From: Salinigranum marinum
GTDB taxonomy: Archaea; Halobacteriota; Halobacteria; Halobacteriales; Haloferacaceae
NCBI RefSeq assembly: GCF_024228675.1
Contig: NZ_CP100461.1
Location: forward strand, 1,550,001-1,614,000
Reading direction: 5' to 3'
Length of the DNA stretch: 64,000 nt
Notes under the pieces: generated by a model
What the model saw: only the letters and a program-made list of their open reading frames with translations
What the model was told of the DNA's origin: nothing
The model's database searches: none
Program-made: the position numbers and the translations under genes
Shown: piece by piece, positions 15,459-24,630 of the stretch
How the letters are laid out: each line of letters begins with the position of its first letter
Numbering within the stretch: the stretch's first letter is position 1

Positions 15459-16439
15459 TCAGTCCAGTCGGGAGAGCACCGCGGCGGTCACGTCGTCGGT
15501 CGAGGCGTCGCCGCCGAGGTCGGGCGTCCGCGGTCCCTCGGCGAGGACCGCTTCGACCGCGCCGTTCACCGCGTCGGCCTCGTCCGTGTACCCGAGCGAG
15601 TCCAAGAGCATCGCCGCCGAGAGGATGGTCGCCGACGGGTTGGCGACGCCCTGTCCCGCGATGTCGGGGGCCGTCCCGTGGACGGGCTCGAAGAGCCCGC
15701 GGTCGGGACCGAGGTTCGCCGACGGGAGCAGTCCGAGCCCGCCGACGAGCCCCGCCGCGAGGTCCGACAGGACGTCGCCCGCGAGGTTCGGGCAGACGAT
15801 GACGCCGTACTCCTCGGGGTGGAGACACAGGTGCATGGCCAGCGCGTCCATCAGCGCGTCCTCGGTCTCGACGCCGCGCTTCTCGGCGACCGTCTCGACG
15901 GCCTCCTTGAACCGCCCGTCGGTCTCCCGCATGACGTTCGCCTTGTGTGCGACGGTGAACCCCTCGAAATCACCCTCCTCGGCGTATTCGCAGGCAAAGC
16001 GCGCGAGCCGCCGCGACGCCGACCCCGTGACGACCCGGGTGAGCGTCGAGACGTCCTCGGTCAGCCGGTGTTCGTGGCCGCCGTAGACGCCTTCAGTGTT
16101 CTCACGGAGGAAGACGAGATCCGTCTCGGGTTTGAGCGCGTCGACGCCCGGATACGCCCGCGCGGGACGGACGTTGACGAACGAGCCGACGGCCCGCCGA
16201 AGCGGGATGACGACGTCTGCGGCGGTCTCGCCGGCCGCGCCGAACAGCGTGGCGTCGGCGGAGGCGGCGAGGTCGAACGTTTCTTCGGGGAGGGCCTCGC
16301 CCTCCGATTCGCGGACGTGGTCGCCCGCCCGCGCCTCGATGAACTCGAAGTCGCCGACTGCCTCCAGCACCTCGCGCGCGGCCGGGACCACTTCCTGTCC
16401 GATACCGTCACCGGGAACCACGACGATTTCGTCGGTCAT
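15459..16439 (-). CDS. leuB: 3-isopropylmalate dehydrogenase
   Basis: A 326-residue beta-decarboxylating dehydrogenase that oxidises 3-isopropylmalate with NAD in leucine synthesis. Signatures are [11 protein letters not shown] at the N-terminus, [14 protein letters not shown] near residue 112, the substrate and metal Asp residues in [20 protein letters not shown] near 215-235, and [18 protein letters not shown] near 255. Length is close to archaeal LeuB. It is the promoter-distal gene of the ilv/leu cluster but is separated from leuD by an oppositely oriented hypothetical gene, so it has its own promoter. Isocitrate or tartrate dehydrogenase is less likely given the leu context. Confidence 0.9.
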
Positions 16440-16556
16440 GCTTACCCAGGTGTGCGGCCCCGTGATGAATGGGTCGGTCCGTGCGCGGGCGCGTCTGACG
16501 GGTGACCGACTGAGACTTATGCGTGGGGGCGTCGACTGACGGCGTATGCACCGCCG

Positions 16557-16955
16557 ATGGCGGACACGGGCGACCGCTCACCGGACACCGTCGCGGTCAC
16601 CGGAGGCAGGCCGACGATGAGCGAGGAACCCACCGAATCCGACGGGGAACCGGGGAACCGGCACGTCTCGATCGAGATCCTCGAACCCCCGGCACCCGAC
16701 GGAACGCCGGCGCTCGATCCGGAGACCCGCGTCGATACGATGGTCAAAGATCGGCTCCTCCCGACGGCCAGACTCGAAGACGGCCGCTACGTCGCGTGGT
16801 GGTTCGACACCGACGCGCCCGAGCCGTACGACCCGGCGACGAGCGAGTGGGTCGTCGCACCGACGCGGTTTCTCGCCGCGGCGACCTTCCGCGAGTTGAC
16901 GGAGGACCCCGCCCGGTTCGACGAGCTCGTCGGCGGCGAAGAAGAGCCGGCGTAA
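16557..16955 (+). CDS. Hypothetical acidic protein between leuB and leuD
   Basis: A 132-residue soluble protein of unknown function on the opposite strand to the leu genes. The first 40 residues are disordered and acidic. The rest ([69 protein letters not shown]) looks folded. A TATA-like ACTTATG at 16514-16520 would start transcription near 16540, just before the ATG at 16557; an internal ATG at 16617 is the alternative start. It is divergent from leuB with a 117-bp spacer and converges on leuD. Confidence 0.55.
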
Positions 16956-17104
16956 CCCCTTCAGCCCGCCCGAAGGATCGGATGGGCTCTTCTCGCCGTC
17001 AGGGATCGAGCGGATCACGGCGGGCGTCGAGTGAGTCGATCGTGAACTGTCGGCGCCACGAACGACGGCCACGGCGACCACGGTGACGCCGTGAGCCCGT
17101 CAGG

Positions 17105-17722
17105 TCAGGATTCGAGTTCGAGATACGGGAGCGAGCCCGCCAGGTCGCGCACGGCGTTCTTGTTCGAGCGCATCAGCGCCGTGGTGTCCCACTCGCCGTC
17201 GACGAGCGCCTTCCGCTGTGCGTCGTCGACCGTGACGTCGACCACGGTGTCCCCGTAGGTGACCGTCTCGGCCGCGACGTCGACCTCGATCTCGGCGTGC
17301 GGGTTCTCGTCGACGAACGCCTGGATGGTCTCGATCGTCTCCGAGTCCGCGGTGACAGTCGGGATGCCGAGCGCGAGGCAGTTGCCGGCGAAGATCTCGG
17401 CGAACGATTCGCCGATGACGGCGTCGATGCCCCAGCGCATGAGCGCCTGCGGGGCGTGTTCGCGCGAGGAGCCACAACCGAAGTTGGCGTTGACAACGAG
17501 TACCGAGGAGTCCTGGAACCGCTCCTCGTTGAACGGATGCTCCTTCGGTGTGTCGTCGTCCTCGTACCGCAGGTCGAAGAACGCGAACTCGCCGAGGCCG
17601 TCGAAGGTGACGACCTTCATGAAGCGCGCCGGGATGATCTGGTCGGTGTCGATGTCGTTGCCGCGGATCGGAACCCCACTCCCCGACACGTAGTCGACCT
17701 CTGGGATCTCGACGTCGCTCAT
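17105..17722 (-). CDS. leuD: 3-isopropylmalate dehydratase small subunit
   Basis: A 205-residue swivelling-domain subunit that pairs with LeuC to interconvert 2- and 3-isopropylmalate. Signatures are RGNDIDTDQIIPARFMK near residue 20 and FGCGSSREHAPQAL near 80, which bind substrate. The C-terminus is slightly extended. It lies 55 nt downstream of leuC on the same strand, in keeping with a two-subunit operon. Confidence 0.92.
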   Translation of the reverse strand: MSDVEIPEVDYVSGSGVPIRGNDIDTDQIIPARFMKVVTFDGLGEFAFFDLRYEDDDTPKEHPFNEERFQDSSVLVVNANFGCGSSREHAPQALMRWGIDAVIGESFAEIFAGNCLALGIPTVTADSETIETIQAFVDENPHAEIEVDVAAETVTYGDTVVDVTVDDAQRKALVDGEWDTTALMRSNKNAVRDLAGSLPYLELES

Positions 17723-17777
17723 GCGACCACCTCCAGAGCGTCGCTCTGGCGTACTCGCATTCGCTCGCGTCGCTCGC

Positions 17778-19199
17778 TCATGCGACGGCCACCTCCTTGA
17801 GGTCGCGCACGTCAGTCACTTCCCCTTTGATCGCCGCGGCGGCGACCATCCGTGGGTTCATCAGCACCGTGCGGCCGTCCTTCGACCCTTGCCGGCCGAT
17901 GAAGTTCCGGTTCGACGACGACGCGCAGGCCTCGTCGCCCTGTAGCTGGTCCTCGTTCATGCCGAGACACATCGAACAGCCCGCGTTCCGCCAGTCGAAG
18001 CCGGCCTCGGTGAAGATCTCTTTGAGCCCTTCCTCCTCGGCTGCGCGCTGGACGCGCTGGCTGCCGGGGACGACCATGGCGCGGACGTCCGGGTGGACCT
18101 GTCGCCCCTCGACGATGGTGGCGGCGCGACGGAGGTCCGCCAGCCGCGAGTTCGTACAGGAGCCGAGGAAGGCGACGTCGATCTTGTAGCCGTCCATCGT
18201 GTCGCCCGGCGTGACGCGCATGTGTTCCTGCGCGCGGCGGGCGGTGTCCTGTTTCGCCTCCGGGAGCTCCTCTGGAGCCGGGATCGGCTCCGTGATGCCG
18301 ATGCCCTGTCCGGGCGTCGTTCCCCACGTGACGACGGGTTCGAGTTCGTCGCCGTCGATGACGACGACGTCGTCGTACTCGGCGTCGTCGTCCGATCTGA
18401 CTGACTCCCAGTACGGCTTCAGTTCCTCGAACCGCTCGGGATCGTCTCTGAACTCGTCGGTCTCGGCGAGCCACTCGTAGGTGGTCTGGTCGGGGTTGAC
18501 GTAGCCCGCGCGGGCACCGCCCTCGATGGACATGTTGCAGATGCTCATCCGCCCCTCCATGCCGAGCGACTCGATGGCCTCGCCGGCGTACTCGTAGACG
18601 TAGCCGACACCCCCTTCGGTGCCCAGCCGACGAATGATCTCGAGGATGATGTCCTTCGCCTCGACGCCCGCTCCGAGCTCCCCGGTGACCTCGATCTTGC
18701 GGACCTTCTGCTTCTCCATGGCGATACAGCCCGTCGCCAGCACGTCGCGGATCTGCGAGGTGCCGATCCCGAACGCGAGCGCGCCGAACGCGCCGTGGGT
18801 CGACGTGTGACTGTCACCACAGACGATAGTCTTGCCGGGCTGGGTGATGCCCTGCTCCGGCCCGATGACGTGGACGATGCCCTGGTTCCCCGTCGTGGGG
18901 TCGTCGAACTCGATCCCCGACTCACGGACGTTCTCCTCGAGTTCCGACATCATCTCCTCGGCCGCCGAATCGCCGTAGGGACGCGACTGGTCCGCCGTGG
19001 GAACGATGTGGTCGACGGTCGCGTGCGTCAGTTCGGGGAACGCCACCTCAAGCCCACGCTCACGGAGCATCCCGAACGCCTGGGGACTCGTCACCTCGTG
19101 GATGAGGTGCAACCCGACGAACAGCTGTGTCTGTCCCGTCGGGAGCGTCGTCACCGTGTGGCGGTCCCATACCTTGTCGTACAGTGTTCCTTCACTCAT
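17778..19199 (-). CDS. leuC: 3-isopropylmalate dehydratase large subunit
   Basis: A 473-residue aconitase-family subunit carrying the [4Fe-4S] cluster. Cluster ligands are visible in [14 protein letters not shown] near residue 350 and [13 protein letters not shown] near 412. Other signatures are [13 protein letters not shown] near 62 and [20 protein letters not shown] near 125. Its ATG (19197-19199) lies inside the end of the preceding 85-residue gene (8-nt overlap), suggesting translational coupling within the ilvC-leuC-leuD unit. Confidence 0.94.
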
Positions 19200-19449
19200 C
19201 AGTACTGTTCCCTGTTACTTGCTCGACCGGTTTGACCCCGTCGGTGGTCTGTTCACCGTTTTTGGATCCGCGCGTCCACACCTCGTTCGCCCCGTCGCCG
19301 TCGGGGGCTTCGTGGGCGACGTCTCGCATCTCGTCGTCCTCGGTGCCGCCGTCGGCGGCCGCGGGCCCGCGCGCGAAGACGCCGCCGTTCGCGCCGAACG
19401 CCTCCCCCGTGTGGGGGTTCGTGTGCTCGATTTCGTCCATTCGTGTCAT
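19192..19449 (-). CDS. Small acidic protein between ilvC and leuC
   Basis: An 85-residue hydrophilic protein beginning [19 protein letters not shown] and ending TGNSTDE. The [22 protein letters not shown] segment looks like a short conserved motif, and the rest is disordered and acidic. The start at 19449 is 2 nt after the ilvC stop and the stop overlaps the leuC start, so it is translated with both. An in-frame ATG at 19440 is also possible. Haloferax has a small gene at the same place, as far as I recall. Function is unknown; a role tied to branched-chain amino-acid synthesis is suggested only by position. Confidence 0.68.
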
Positions 19450-19451
19450 CG

Positions 19452-20504
19452 CTACTCTCCCAGTGTGATCTTCTCGTCGTCGGCCGTCTCCTCGTCCTCC
19501 TCGTCGGCCCACGCGAACAGCCCACGGAGGCGCGCACCGACCTCCTCGATCTCGTGGTTCTCCTCCTGTGCGCGGAGCTGCCAGTACTTCGGTCGGTTGG
19601 CCTGGTTCTCGGTGATCCACTCCTGGGCGAACTCCCCGTTCTGGACCTCTTCGAGGATCGCTTCCATGTTCTCCCGGGCGTGGTCGTCGATGACACGGTC
19701 CCCGCGGGTGAGTCCGCCGAACTCGGCGGTGTCGGAGACCGACCCCCACATCGCGCCGAGCCCGCCCTCGTACATCAGGTCGACGATGAGTTTCATCTCG
19801 TTGAGACACTCGAAGTACGCCATCTCCTTCGAGTAGCCCGCGTCGACGAGCGTCTCGTACCCCTGTTTGATGAGCGAGGCGATCCCGCCGCAGAGGACGG
19901 CCTGCTCGCCGAAGAGGTCCGTCTCGGTCTCCTCGCGGAACGTGGTTTCGACGACGCCGGCGCGCGTACAGCCGATGGCGTGGGCGTACGCCAGCGCCTC
20001 CGCTTTGGCCTCGCCGGTTGCGTCTTGGTACACCGCGAGGAGGCCGGGTGTGCCCTCGCCGTTCTCGTAGTTGCGGCGGACGAGGTGGCCCGGGGACTTC
20101 GGCGCGATCATGGTCACGTCGACGTCCTCGGGGGGGAGGATCTGGTTGTAGTGGATGTTGAAGCCGTGGGCGAACTGCAGGGTGTTGCCCGGTTCGAGTT
20201 CGTCGCTGATGTCGTCGAACACCGCCGGCTGGACCGTGTCGGGGACCAGCACGGAGACGATCTCCGCCTGAGCGGCCGCCTCGACGGGCGTCGCCACCCG
20301 GAGGCCGTCGGCTTCGGCCGCCGCGCGCGAGGAGGAGTCCTCACGGAGGCCGACGACCACGTCGATCCCCGAGTCGGCGAGGTTCTGCGCGTGGGCGTGG
20401 CCCTGGCTCCCGTAGCCGAGGACAGCGACCGTCTTGTCGTCGATCTGTGAGCGATCCGCGTCGTCGTCGTAGTATACGTCGATGGTGAAGTCTGCGTCTG
20501 ACAT
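19452..20504 (-). CDS. ilvC: Ketol-acid reductoisomerase
   Basis: A 350-residue class I enzyme that converts acetolactate to dihydroxyisovalerate with NAD(P)H and Mg2+. The nucleotide loop is [17 protein letters not shown] near residue 28. The metal and substrate region includes [16 protein letters not shown] near 205 and the [13 protein letters not shown] block near 260. It follows ilvN in the operon (57-nt gap) and precedes the 85-residue protein by 2 nt. The C-terminus is extended with acidic residues, usual for halophiles. Confidence 0.94.
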
Positions 20505-20561
20505 GTGTAGTAGTCGGATAGGTGGGAAACTGTGATTTTTACGTTTCGGTCCCGTTCTGCC

Positions 20562-21221
20562 TCACTCGTCGGGCCAGTGTTTCGCTGTCGCGTTCGCGCC
20601 CGCCTCCAGCGCGGCCGTCCCGGTCCGGACGATCTCGCGGACGCCGAAGCGCTCGAACGTGTCGAGCGCGTTCTCGATCGTGTTCTTCGGCCCCGTCACC
20701 TCGACCGTGATCGCGTCCGCGCACGCGTCGACGACCCGCCCGTCGTACATCTCCGCGACGGCGGCGATCTGGTCGGGGTGTTCGCCCTCGATCTTGATCA
20801 GCGCGAGTTCGCGCCGGACCGCCTCGTCCGTGAGTTCGGTCACCGAGATGACCGGCACGAGTTTCTCTAACTGCTTTTTGGCCTGCTCGATGCCCGGTTC
20901 GGGCTCGCGGATGACGAGCGTGATCCGCGAGTACTCCTCGCTCTGGGTCGTCCCGACGGTGAGCGACTCGATGTTGAACTGCCGGCGGGCGAACAGCCCC
21001 GAGGCGCGGGCGAGCACGCCCGGCTCGTTGAGGACCAACGCCGAGAGCACCGCCTCGCGGGTGTCGGGCTCGGCCTCGACCTCGGGGTCGATGCGGATGC
21101 CCTGGCTGTTGCGTCGCCCCTGTGGGTGGGGCCGCTCGTCCGGTCCAGGGCCTTTCAGTCCCGTCCGGTGGACGTTCTCGGCGGTGTTCGACTCGGTCTC
21201 GGTCGTCCGATCGGAGCTCAT
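20562..21221 (-). CDS. ilvN: Acetolactate synthase regulatory (small) subunit
   Basis: A 219-residue ACT-domain subunit that confers branched-chain amino-acid feedback on IlvB. The first 50 residues are an unstructured acidic extension. The ACT domain begins AVLSALVLNEPGVLARASGLFARR near residue 55, with FNIESLTVGTTQ after it. The C-terminal domain (ALIKIEGEHPDQIAAVAEMYDGR) follows. The ATG at 21221 overlaps the ilvB stop (ATGA), which fixes the start and indicates coupled synthesis of the two subunits. Confidence 0.92.
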   Translation of the reverse strand: MSSDRTTETESNTAENVHRTGLKGPGPDERPHPQGRRNSQGIRIDPEVEAEPDTREAVLSALVLNEPGVLARASGLFARRQFNIESLTVGTTQSEEYSRITLVIREPEPGIEQAKKQLEKLVPVISVTELTDEAVRRELALIKIEGEHPDQIAAVAEMYDGRVVDACADAITVEVTGPKNTIENALDTFERFGVREIVRTGTAALEAGANATAKHWPDE

Positions 21222-23023
21222 AGCTGGTCCTCCGAGAGCGCGAACTTGCCGTTGGGTGCGCCCGAGGCGACCATCGGGTAGACGTTCTCGCCCGGATCGA
21301 CGTGGAAGTCGATGACCGAGGGCCCGTCGTACGCCAACGCCTCCGAGACGGCGTCGACCACCTGATCGTAGTCGTCGACGCGCCAGCCGCGCGCGCCGAA
21401 CGCTTCGGCGAGGCGGTCGAACTCGGGACACCAGTTGTACTCGGCGGCCATGTGTCGGCCCTCGTAGAAGGCGTCCTGCCACTGTCGCACCATCCCGATG
21501 TACTCGTTGTTGAGCACTGCGACGGTGATATCCATGTTCTCGCGCACGGCCACGGAGAGCTCCTGCATCGTCATCAGGAAGGAGCCGTCGCCGTCGAAAC
21601 ACACGACCGAGCGGTCCTCCTGGCCCATCTGGTCCGCGGCGAGGCGCGCGCCGATCGCCGCCGGGAGGCCGTAGCCCATCGTTCCTAGTCCATGAGAGGA
21701 GACCCACGTCCGCGGCTCGCGGTACGTCCAGTACTGCGAGGCCCACATCTGGTGCTGGCCCACGCCCGTCGTAACGATCGTGTCGTCGGCGGTGGCCTCG
21801 TCGAACGCCTCGACGACGAACTGCGGTTTGAGGGGTTCGTCCGACGGCGCCGCGTAGTCCATCGGGTACTCCTCCTTCCACTGCCCGCACTGCTCGCGCC
21901 ACTCGCGGGCGTCCGGCGAGTGCTCCATCGCGGTGTCGACCTGGTCGATGACGCGGCCCGCGTCGCCGACGAGCGGGTAGTCCGCGTGGATGTTCTTCGA
22001 GATCTCCGCGGGGTCGATGTCGATGTGGAGCACCTCGGCCTCGGGCGCGAACGAGTCGATGCCGCCGGTGAGCCGGTCGTCGAACCGGGTTCCGACCGCG
22101 ATCAGCAGGTCCGTGTGGGTGATCGCCATGTTCGCGTAGCCGGTGCCGTGCATGCCGGCCCACGACAGGCAGAGCTCGTGATCCTCGGGGAAGCTCCCGA
22201 TGCCGGGCATCGTCGTCACCACGGGGATGCCGTGATCGATGGCGAACGCGCGGGCGGTTTTGGAGGCGTTGGCCTTGATGACGCCGCCGCCGAACAGCAG
22301 CAGGGGCTTCTCGGCGTTCTCGATGGCCCTCGCCGCGACCTTCACGTCCTGCTCGTCGGCCTCCATCTGCGGGTTGTACGTCTTCGGCGGGCGGGCCGGA
22401 CCGGGTTCGCGGCCTGCCTCGCCCTGCGTGACGTCCTTCGGGAGGTCGACCAGCGTCGGTCCCGGACGGCCCATGCCGGCGAGGGCGAACGCCTCGCCGA
22501 CCGTATCGCCGACCGTGTCCGCGTCGCCCGCGAAGTAGTTGTGTTTCGTGATGGGCGCGGTGACGCCGATGGTGTCGGTCTCCTGGAAGGCGTCCGAGCC
22601 GACCATGTCGCTCGGCACCTGCCCGGTGAGCGCGAGCACGGCGTCCGAATCCATGTTCGCGTCGGCGATGCCCGTGACGAGGTTCGTCGCGCCGGGACCC
22701 GACGTGGCGAGACAGACCCCCGGCTCCCCCTTGACGACGCCGTACGCGTCGGCGGCGTGGGACGCCCCCTGCTCGTGGGCCATCATCACGTGGCGGATCG
22801 GCGAGTCGTAGAGGGCGTCGTAGACGGGCATGATGGCACCGCCCTGGACGCCGAACGCCGCTTCCACGCCCGCGGCTTCGAGGGCGCGGACCACGGACGA
22901 GGCACCGGTGGTCACCGGCGGTCGTTCGTCGTCCGCGTCGTCCGTTCGTGGCTGTTCCTCCGTGTCGGCCGCCCCGTGTGTGGGGTCGTCCGTCTCGGGT
23001 GTCGGTGTCGCACGTTCGCTCAT
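21218..23023 (-). CDS. ilvB: Acetolactate synthase catalytic (large) subunit
   Basis: A 601-residue thiamine-diphosphate enzyme that condenses pyruvate to acetolactate, the first step for valine and leucine. The catalytic Glu is in MMAHEQGASHAADAYG near residue 82. The FAD region follows in the middle domain. The ThDP/Mg signature is CFDGDGSFLMTMQELSVA, ending with NNEYIGMV near 515. The N-terminal 35 residues are an acidic extension. It heads an ilvB-ilvN-ilvC-x-leuC-leuD operon and is preceded by a long 5' leader with a candidate leader peptide and hairpins. Confidence 0.94.
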   Translation of the reverse strand: MSERATPTPETDDPTHGAADTEEQPRTDDADDERPPVTTGASSVVRALEAAGVEAAFGVQGGAIMPVYDALYDSPIRHVMMAHEQGASHAADAYGVVKGEPGVCLATSGPGATNLVTGIADANMDSDAVLALTGQVPSDMVGSDAFQETDTIGVTAPITKHNYFAGDADTVGDTVGEAFALAGMGRPGPTLVDLPKDVTQGEAGREPGPARPPKTYNPQMEADEQDVKVAARAIENAEKPLLLFGGGVIKANASKTARAFAIDHGIPVVTTMPGIGSFPEDHELCLSWAGMHGTGYANMAITHTDLLIAVGTRFDDRLTGGIDSFAPEAEVLHIDIDPAEISKNIHADYPLVGDAGRVIDQVDTAMEHSPDAREWREQCGQWKEEYPMDYAAPSDEPLKPQFVVEAFDEATADDTIVTTGVGQHQMWASQYWTYREPRTWVSSHGLGTMGYGLPAAIGARLAADQMGQEDRSVVCFDGDGSFLMTMQELSVAVRENMDITVAVLNNEYIGMVRQWQDAFYEGRHMAAEYNWCPEFDRLAEAFGARGWRVDDYDQVVDAVSEALAYDGPSVIDFHVDPGENVYPMVASGAPNGKFALSEDQL

Positions 23024-23050
23024 GTGTTACGTTTCTCGGCTTGGCCTGAT

Positions 23051-23069
23051 GGGGTGATCGACACACCCC
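23051..23069 (-). promoter_or_regulatory. Hairpin just upstream of ilvB
   Basis: A 6-bp stem (GGGGTG/CACCCC) with a 7-nt loop ends 28 nt before the ilvB start codon, inside the predicted 5' leader. No T-tract follows, so if active it is more likely to affect translation or pausing than to act as an intrinsic terminator. Confidence 0.35.
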
Positions 23070-23114
23070 GATGTGTTCGGTGGACGGTACGATCGGCGCG
23101 GAGAAGAGTGAGTG

Positions 23115-23133
23115 AGGGGCCTAGGCAGCCCCT
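23115..23133 (-). promoter_or_regulatory. Hairpin overlapping the end of the ilvB leader ORF
   Basis: On the minus strand AGGGGC-TGCCTAG-GCCCCT forms a 6-bp stem with a 7-nt loop. The loop contains the stop codon of the 32-residue leader ORF, and the 5' arm starts at the leader's last Val codon. A ribosome paused on the Ile-Val codons would block the hairpin, as in classical attenuators. This function is an inference. Confidence 0.4.
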
Positions 23134-23219
23134 ACAATCGACCGAATAGCGGCGGCACCGACCCGGAGAGCGCGTGCGCTCGTCGGCCGAGCGCCGCCTT
23201 CGCGGGTGAGATGCCTCAT
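23121..23219 (-). CDS. Candidate 32-aa leader peptide of the ilvB operon
   Basis: A 33-codon frame whose ATG (23219) coincides with the predicted transcription start, 29 nt from the TATA-like box centre, so it would be translated leaderless. It begins MRHLTREGGARP and ends ALRVGAAAIRSIVGAA. Five Leu, Val or Ile codons fall in its last 15 positions. Its stop lies in the loop of a hairpin, 97 nt before ilvB. This arrangement resembles branched-chain amino-acid leader peptides of bacteria. The evidence is placement and composition only; conservation is untested. Confidence 0.45.
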   Translation of the reverse strand: MRHLTREGGARPTSARALRVGAAAIRSIVGAA

Positions 23220-23244
23220 CGTATCGGGACCGATACGCTCGGGT

Positions 23245-23252
23245 CATAAAAC
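23245..23252 (-). promoter_or_regulatory. TATA-like box of the ilvB operon
   Basis: GTTTTATG on the minus strand, an archaeal TATA-type element. It places transcription start near 23220, exactly at the ATG of the candidate leader peptide and about 197 nt before ilvB. The long leader is unusual for this window, where most messages appear leaderless. Confidence 0.55.
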
Positions 23253-23362
23253 CCTTTCGTGAGCGACGCGGGAGCGACCGCGGCCCCCGGCCGCCACGCG
23301 CCCGCACCGGACCGACGCGGACCTGTCGCTCGCGACGTGACGCGAACGAGGCCGGGACCATG

Positions 23363-24605
<1,243 letters not shown>

Positions 24606-24630
24606 TGTACTTCCTTCCAGACCACGGCCC

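Follow-up and report, generated by a model that had tools for sequence, protein, structure and literature searches.

Leader-peptide attenuation is a textbook mechanism of bacteria. In branched-chain amino acid (BCAA) biosynthesis it is known from ilvBN and ilvGMEDA of E. coli and from ilvBNC of Corynebacterium (PMC10272879, PMC11857589), where a translated leader lies between the promoter and ilvB, codons for the end products stand at the 3' end of the leader and a GC-rich hairpin adjoins them. The putative leader that we describe upstream of ilvB in Salinigranum marinum has a similar arrangement, but it is archaeal and predicted to be leaderless, and only an Ile-Val pair is universal among its codons. 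It also differs from the bacterial attenuators in its single hairpin, which has the Val codon in the 5' arm, the stop codon in the loop and no antiterminator that we could find, and in its tail, a G-free T/C tract instead of an oligo-U run. Since a competing structure was sought and not found, this leader should not be classed as a classical terminator/antiterminator attenuator. The short BCAA leaders of Actinobacteria (compare PMC1262725) offer another parallel: at the Acidimicrobiia ilvB loci L108-L112, uORFs with Ile/Leu/Val codons precede ilvB, but these are bacterial, 10-12 codons long, without the GTAGGGG hairpin and unrelated in sequence.

Most transcripts of haloarchaea are leaderless, and structured 5' leaders are accordingly believed to be rare among them (PMC4983044). 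The dRNA-seq study of H. volcanii published in 2016 tabulated uORFs before pheS and trpS as small proteins, ilvB not being included; these are, like the ilvB leader, short ORFs in long 5' UTRs of haloarchaea, but they were given without a regulatory reading or cognate codons (PMC4983044). In H. volcanii, the terminators between genes consist of a T stretch with a TC dinucleotide, and one hairpin that was put to the test stopped 59% of transcripts in vivo (PMC7237163). The end of the ilvB leader is similar to these terminators in combining a hairpin with a T-run followed by C, whereas the described ones had been located at 3' ends and within coding regions, and none was mapped as a regulated terminator acting prematurely in a leader. 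Our search of the open-access literature found no account of an archaeal amino-acid leader peptide; as subscription journals and preprints lay outside this search, priority is unproven. No Rfam covariance model, those of the bacterial BCAA leaders and the T-box included, matched positions 22900-23450 up to E = 1.

The leader and its operon in Salinigranum marinum

The window analyzed here is the whole stretch of 64,000 nucleotides of S. marinum DNA, and all of its features described below are on the minus strand. The ilvB leader was read from the sequence in the leuA-ilvB intergenic region. The TATA-like box reported by the first-pass annotation is present at 23260-23246, where a BRE-like element (CGAAAGGG) is joined to the TATA box TTTTAT, and it is invariant in four Salinigranum genomes. 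The TATA box starts at -32 relative to the leader ATG (23219), which fits leaderless spacing, and in 91 surveyed loci the AT-richest hexamer begins at -31/-32 from this codon; the spacing argues for a transcription start at or beside the ATG. The same annotation had called a leaderless ORF of 32 residues, which we recovered as uORF1 (23219-23121, 32 codons), predicted to be leaderless and to encode the leader peptide MRHLTREGGARPTSARALRVGAAAIRSIVGAA; its frame, start and C-terminus are kept across the order. The 3' end of the ORF reads ATT CGG TCG ATT GTA GGG GCT GCC TAG and contains the putative control codons ATT GTA (Ile-Val, 23133-23138), assigned by codon conservation and rarity, and the TAG stop codon (23121-23123). 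The five Leu/Val/Ile residues counted among the last 15 are L, V, I, I and V, as had been claimed, a number that is unremarkable alone; what exceeds chance is the conservation of the leader, which is described in the next section.

The first gene after the leader is ilvB (21218-23023), which encodes the acetolactate synthase large subunit and matches the Pfam families TPP_enzyme_N, M and C. It is followed by ilvN (about 20562-21221), ilvC (19452-20504), leuC (17778-19199), leuD (17105-17722) and leuB (15459-16439), all identified by Pfam matches and together spanning 15459-21221. Gene order and strand suggest that ilvBNC-leuCDB is co-transcribed.

Two other elements of the intergenic region were considered and rejected. 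The perfect palindrome CGTATCGG-TC-CCGATACG (23220-23237), located between the TATA box and the leader ATG, had suggested a repressor operator; it is only partially retained in congeners, and family-wide there is no excess of inverted repeats. The second 6-bp hairpin annotated before ilvB, GGGGTG/CACCCC (23051-23069; arms 23069-23064 and 23056-23051), exists in the window, but it is missing from the other three Salinigranum genomes and therefore probably arose by chance. It was discarded as a part of the mechanism, and a bacterial-type two-hairpin switch is thus unsupported.

Conservation of the leader and selection on its reading frame

The four Salinigranum genomes share the promoter, the ATG, the hairpin and the C-terminus SIVGA[A/V] before the stop, with the leader frame preserved through a 12-nt difference in length. 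In nearly all of about 75 haloarchaeal ilvB loci (from Halobellus, Halorubrum, Halogranum, Halorussus, Haladaptatus, Halonotius, Halohasta, Haloplanus and others), the uORF peptide ends in [L]IIVGA[A/V] or IIVGV, followed by the stop. We sampled another 60 regions, covering 16 family codes of the haloarchaeal order, and found a typical leader before ilvB in 50 of them, four variants and six regions without a leader. Two of the variants (L123 and L159) have compensated stems; in the other two (L164 and L165, family f13) the stop lies beyond the 3' arm, the whole hairpin would be translated and the leader ends in ...VRIVGALPR. The regions without a leader comprise two second ilvB copies (L173 and L174, in two genomes), genome G009 and three genomes that belong to the deep families f9 and f11. 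In other families of the phylum the leader was found in 0 of 20 regions sampled.

The comparison with relatives that the first-pass annotation had proposed shows that both the ORF and the hairpin are kept across the haloarchaeal order, and the interpretation given there thus withstands the refutation by non-conservation that it had named. Its expectation for the Ile/Val/Leu codons held in part: the terminal Ile-Val pair is universal, but the other Leu/Val codons are unconserved. The host genome has nine other matches to GTAGGGG(N4-12)CCCC, none of which was recognized as such a leader, and across the order the background of the GTAGGGG hairpin word is not above that of a reversed control, with no enrichment elsewhere in these genomes.

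Selection was analyzed in 135 non-redundant loci. GTAGGGG was the sole word used to locate them; all figures are conditional on it, and the loci are not phylogenetically independent. Within this limit, ATGs up to 140 nt upstream of the hairpin are distributed as 176, 23 and 13 among the three frames, and a stop in the leader frame occurs within four codons of GGG in 133 of the 135 loci and in neither of the other frames. All three stop codons are used (TAG 81, TAA 34 and TGA 18), the gap from GGG to the stop is one or two codons and the loop varies in length. The codon that precedes GTA is ATT in 92 loci, ATC in 37 and another one in six, so that ATT/ATC-GTA is present in 129 of the 135, and the codon that follows GGG always encodes Ala or Val. 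ATT and GTA are rare in the ilvB, ilvC and leuA genes of the window, where ATT makes up 1 of the 60 Ile codons and GTA 4 of the 124 for Val. The conserved GTA GGG codons could stem from the hairpin alone. In the N-terminal half of Halorubrum-type leaders pN/pS is 1.35; in the C-terminal half it is 0.5, against 1.87 and 0.98 for the other frames there. The N-terminus drifts freely and the length of the leader differs widely among genera; this free N-terminus, taken with the constrained C-terminus, indicates that the selected product is the end of the leader and not the peptide as such. From these sequence comparisons it is nearly certain that selection acts on the ilvB leader. Two features expected of an attenuator were found, a short ORF under reading-frame selection between the promoter and ilvB, and codons for the end products of the pathway at its 3' end.

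The hairpin, the proposed attenuation and its rivals

The leader hairpin is formed by GUAGGGGC and GCCCCUCAC, and its loop holds the stop codon. The 5' arm (GTAGGGGC, 23135-23128), which doubles as the Val-Gly-Ala codons, is supported by GTAGGGG in the 135 loci and by the variants L123 and L159, where altered arms carry compensating changes; the 3' arm (GCCCCTCAC, 23120-23112, GCCCCT(C)AC) is supported by pairing statistics across 133 loci. TAG lies between these arms, as the first-pass annotation had placed it. In the Salinigranum window the hairpin has a fold energy of -15.4 kcal/mol, or z = -2.6 when dinucleotide shuffles serve as the reference. The pair that flanks GGGG/CCCC is C-G in 86 of the 133 loci, U-A in 29 and U-G in six, and is unpaired in 12. 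It varies with the type of stop and with whether the codon is one for Ala (GCN) or Val (GTN), TAG directly before CCCC accompanying GCN codons and mostly TAA or TGA accompanying GTN. When the phylogenetic tree was considered, about four of six independent changes of the variable pair were matched and none was opposed (p = 0.125), so that the covariation of this pair alone is in the right direction but just suggestive and not significant.

The hairpin is conserved, and it is followed by a pyrimidine-rich, almost G-free tract (TCACTCACTCTTCTCC, 23100-23115) that was defined by base composition across loci. At most positions from +2 to +16 after the hairpin G accounts for about 1-5%, while T reaches 51, 65 and 61% at +12 to +14 and C 64% at +15, producing a TTTC peak 12-15 nt past the hairpin arm in a short T/C tract with a T run of about 3. 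This G-free TTTC tract resembles haloarchaeal terminators. A classical antiterminator was sought downstream as a competing structure and was rejected, since the complementarity of the 3' arm to the spacer is lower than in shuffled spacers (3.9 vs 4.5) and no antiterminator is apparent.

On balance, we favor as probable the reading that the leader is a ribosome-controlled, one-hairpin attenuator of ilvBNC-leuCDB. Transcription would begin on or immediately beside the start codon of the leaderless leader ORF, which is presumed to be translated, and a ribosome would trail the RNA polymerase through the leader until it meets the Ile-Val codons (ATT/ATC-GTA), which sit exactly at the beginning of the GC-rich 5' arm. 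If charged Ile-tRNA or Val-tRNA were scarce, the ribosome would stall on Ile-Val and cover GUAGGGG, no hairpin would form and transcription would go on into the operon. If both were plentiful, the ribosome would reach the stop codon in the loop and depart, and the hairpin would close behind the polymerase; with the polymerase on the G-free TTTC tract, this would bring an early end of transcription. A single hairpin would suffice without an antiterminator, the stalled ribosome taking the role of the latter. Amino-acid sensing by stalling is the likely part of this scheme, and premature termination of transcription is the output that analogy with terminators suggests. Some observations count against an attenuator: the two universal control codons are few for such a device, the T run of about 3 is shorter than that of the T5C terminator assayed in H. 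volcanii, and the leader is absent from G009 and from the three deep-family genomes.

The main rival keeps the same sensor and changes its output, so that the stalled ribosome or the hairpin would set the translation or the stability of the ilvB mRNA through a second uORF coupled to ilvB by an ATGA overlap; we judge it unlikely. Most genera carry such a uORF2: an ATG-started ORF ends at the ilvB ATGA in 79 of 116 loci of the relatives, where shuffles predict 12.1, the uORF2 frame holds 97 of the 122 ATGs in the spacers, and many loci have an SD-like GGAGG before ilvB. Salinigranum, however, has no ATG-started uORF2, just a GTG-started candidate that overlaps the ilvB start (23020-23064) and is proposed from sequence alone. 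In addition, the distance between the hairpin and the ilvB ATG is 76-360 nt (median 148), and the below-shuffle complementarity of its 3' arm to the spacer (3.9 vs 4.5) indicates that the ilvB start is not sequestered by pairing.

An arrest peptide, whose C-terminal I-V-G-A would stall the ribosome on free BCAA or another effector and not on an empty tRNA, could explain why C-terminal residues and not codons alone are kept, with Ala or Val always after GGG; it is improbable, as the hairpin arm GUAGGGG[C/U] dictates V-G-A, synonymous Ile codons exchange freely and the residues further back, which would contact the tunnel, are unconserved (pN/pS 1.35). If the GTAGGGG..CCCCTAC palindrome, an inverted repeat with near-invariant arms, were instead a DNA or RNA site for protein binding, the frame would be incidental, which is hard to reconcile with the in-frame ATG excess, with an in-frame stop kept by all three stop codons despite the varying loop length, with the compensated arms of L123 and L159 and with a word that is not enriched elsewhere in the genomes; we regard this as highly improbable. 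Least credible of all is a small protein with its own function: such proteins are common in haloarchaea (PMC4983044) and the ORF is conserved, but its N-terminal half is unconserved and without purifying selection, and its length varies widely across genera.

Predicted leaders at other amino-acid genes

Before pheS, a conserved uORF ending in GFGFFFA(x) and a stop was observed at L183-L212, the copy of the host genome being L204, and in some genomes its stop is inside a hairpin loop; this uORF is a predicted phenylalanine leader peptide. One class of trpS genes (L213-L226) has a conserved uORF with WRW, for example MQSAPTCWRWRAPGADSLAFAA, which is a predicted tryptophan leader peptide. In the other trpS class (L232, L234, L236, L237, L239 and L242) a small ORF, MVFAL...VGRLTP, stands directly before the gene and overlaps its start by ATGA in three of the six loci, like uORF2 at ilvB. 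A Trp leader was also sought at trpC in the same genomes and none was found. The cognate leaders of pheS and of one trpS class speak in favor of the attenuator reading at ilvB.

The start of leuA (24532-24607, minus strand) has no ATG, GTG or TTG in its own frame after the leuA promoter. An ORF that begins at a leaderless ATG (MSNNMDVEDTSSGSPAGRVLPGHTGNHF) overlaps leuA out of frame, and GGTCGAGTTCTTC is kept from genus to genus. An overlapping ORF stands in this frame relation to leuA in 43 of 44 loci, and 37 loci are without a usual start in the LeuA frame within the transcript. LeuA may be made by a programmed +1 frameshift at CTT-C or may begin at a non-standard codon, and our literature search found no paper on either at leuA. 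LeuA (23363-24601) matches HMGL-like and HCS_D2 but not the C-terminal regulatory domain of LeuA in Pfam. Among the loci L152, L153, L156 and L273-L292, the deep families f9 and f11 and several families outside the haloarchaea, which are without the leader, have ilvB immediately after a leuA-like gene with a C-terminus that resembles the LeuA regulatory domain. Leader control may have replaced allosteric control of LeuA.

We tentatively propose, as a possibility that we hold with less than even confidence, that a general system of leader ORFs sensing amino acids arose within the haloarchaea themselves, comprising Ile-Val at ilvB, Phe at pheS, Trp at trpS and possibly a +1 frameshift at leuA that responds to leucine. 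In this system a ribosome that initiates leaderless would directly control early termination by the Pol II-like RNA polymerase of archaea, using a single hairpin without any antiterminator. If the attenuation proposed for ilvB is true, a one-hairpin attenuator can work without an antiterminator. It would also mean that the coupling of ribosome and RNA polymerase in archaea is close enough for codon-level sensing, in a core biosynthetic operon and throughout the order, with cognate leaders at pheS and trpS besides, and this coupling would be directly testable in Haloferax volcanii.
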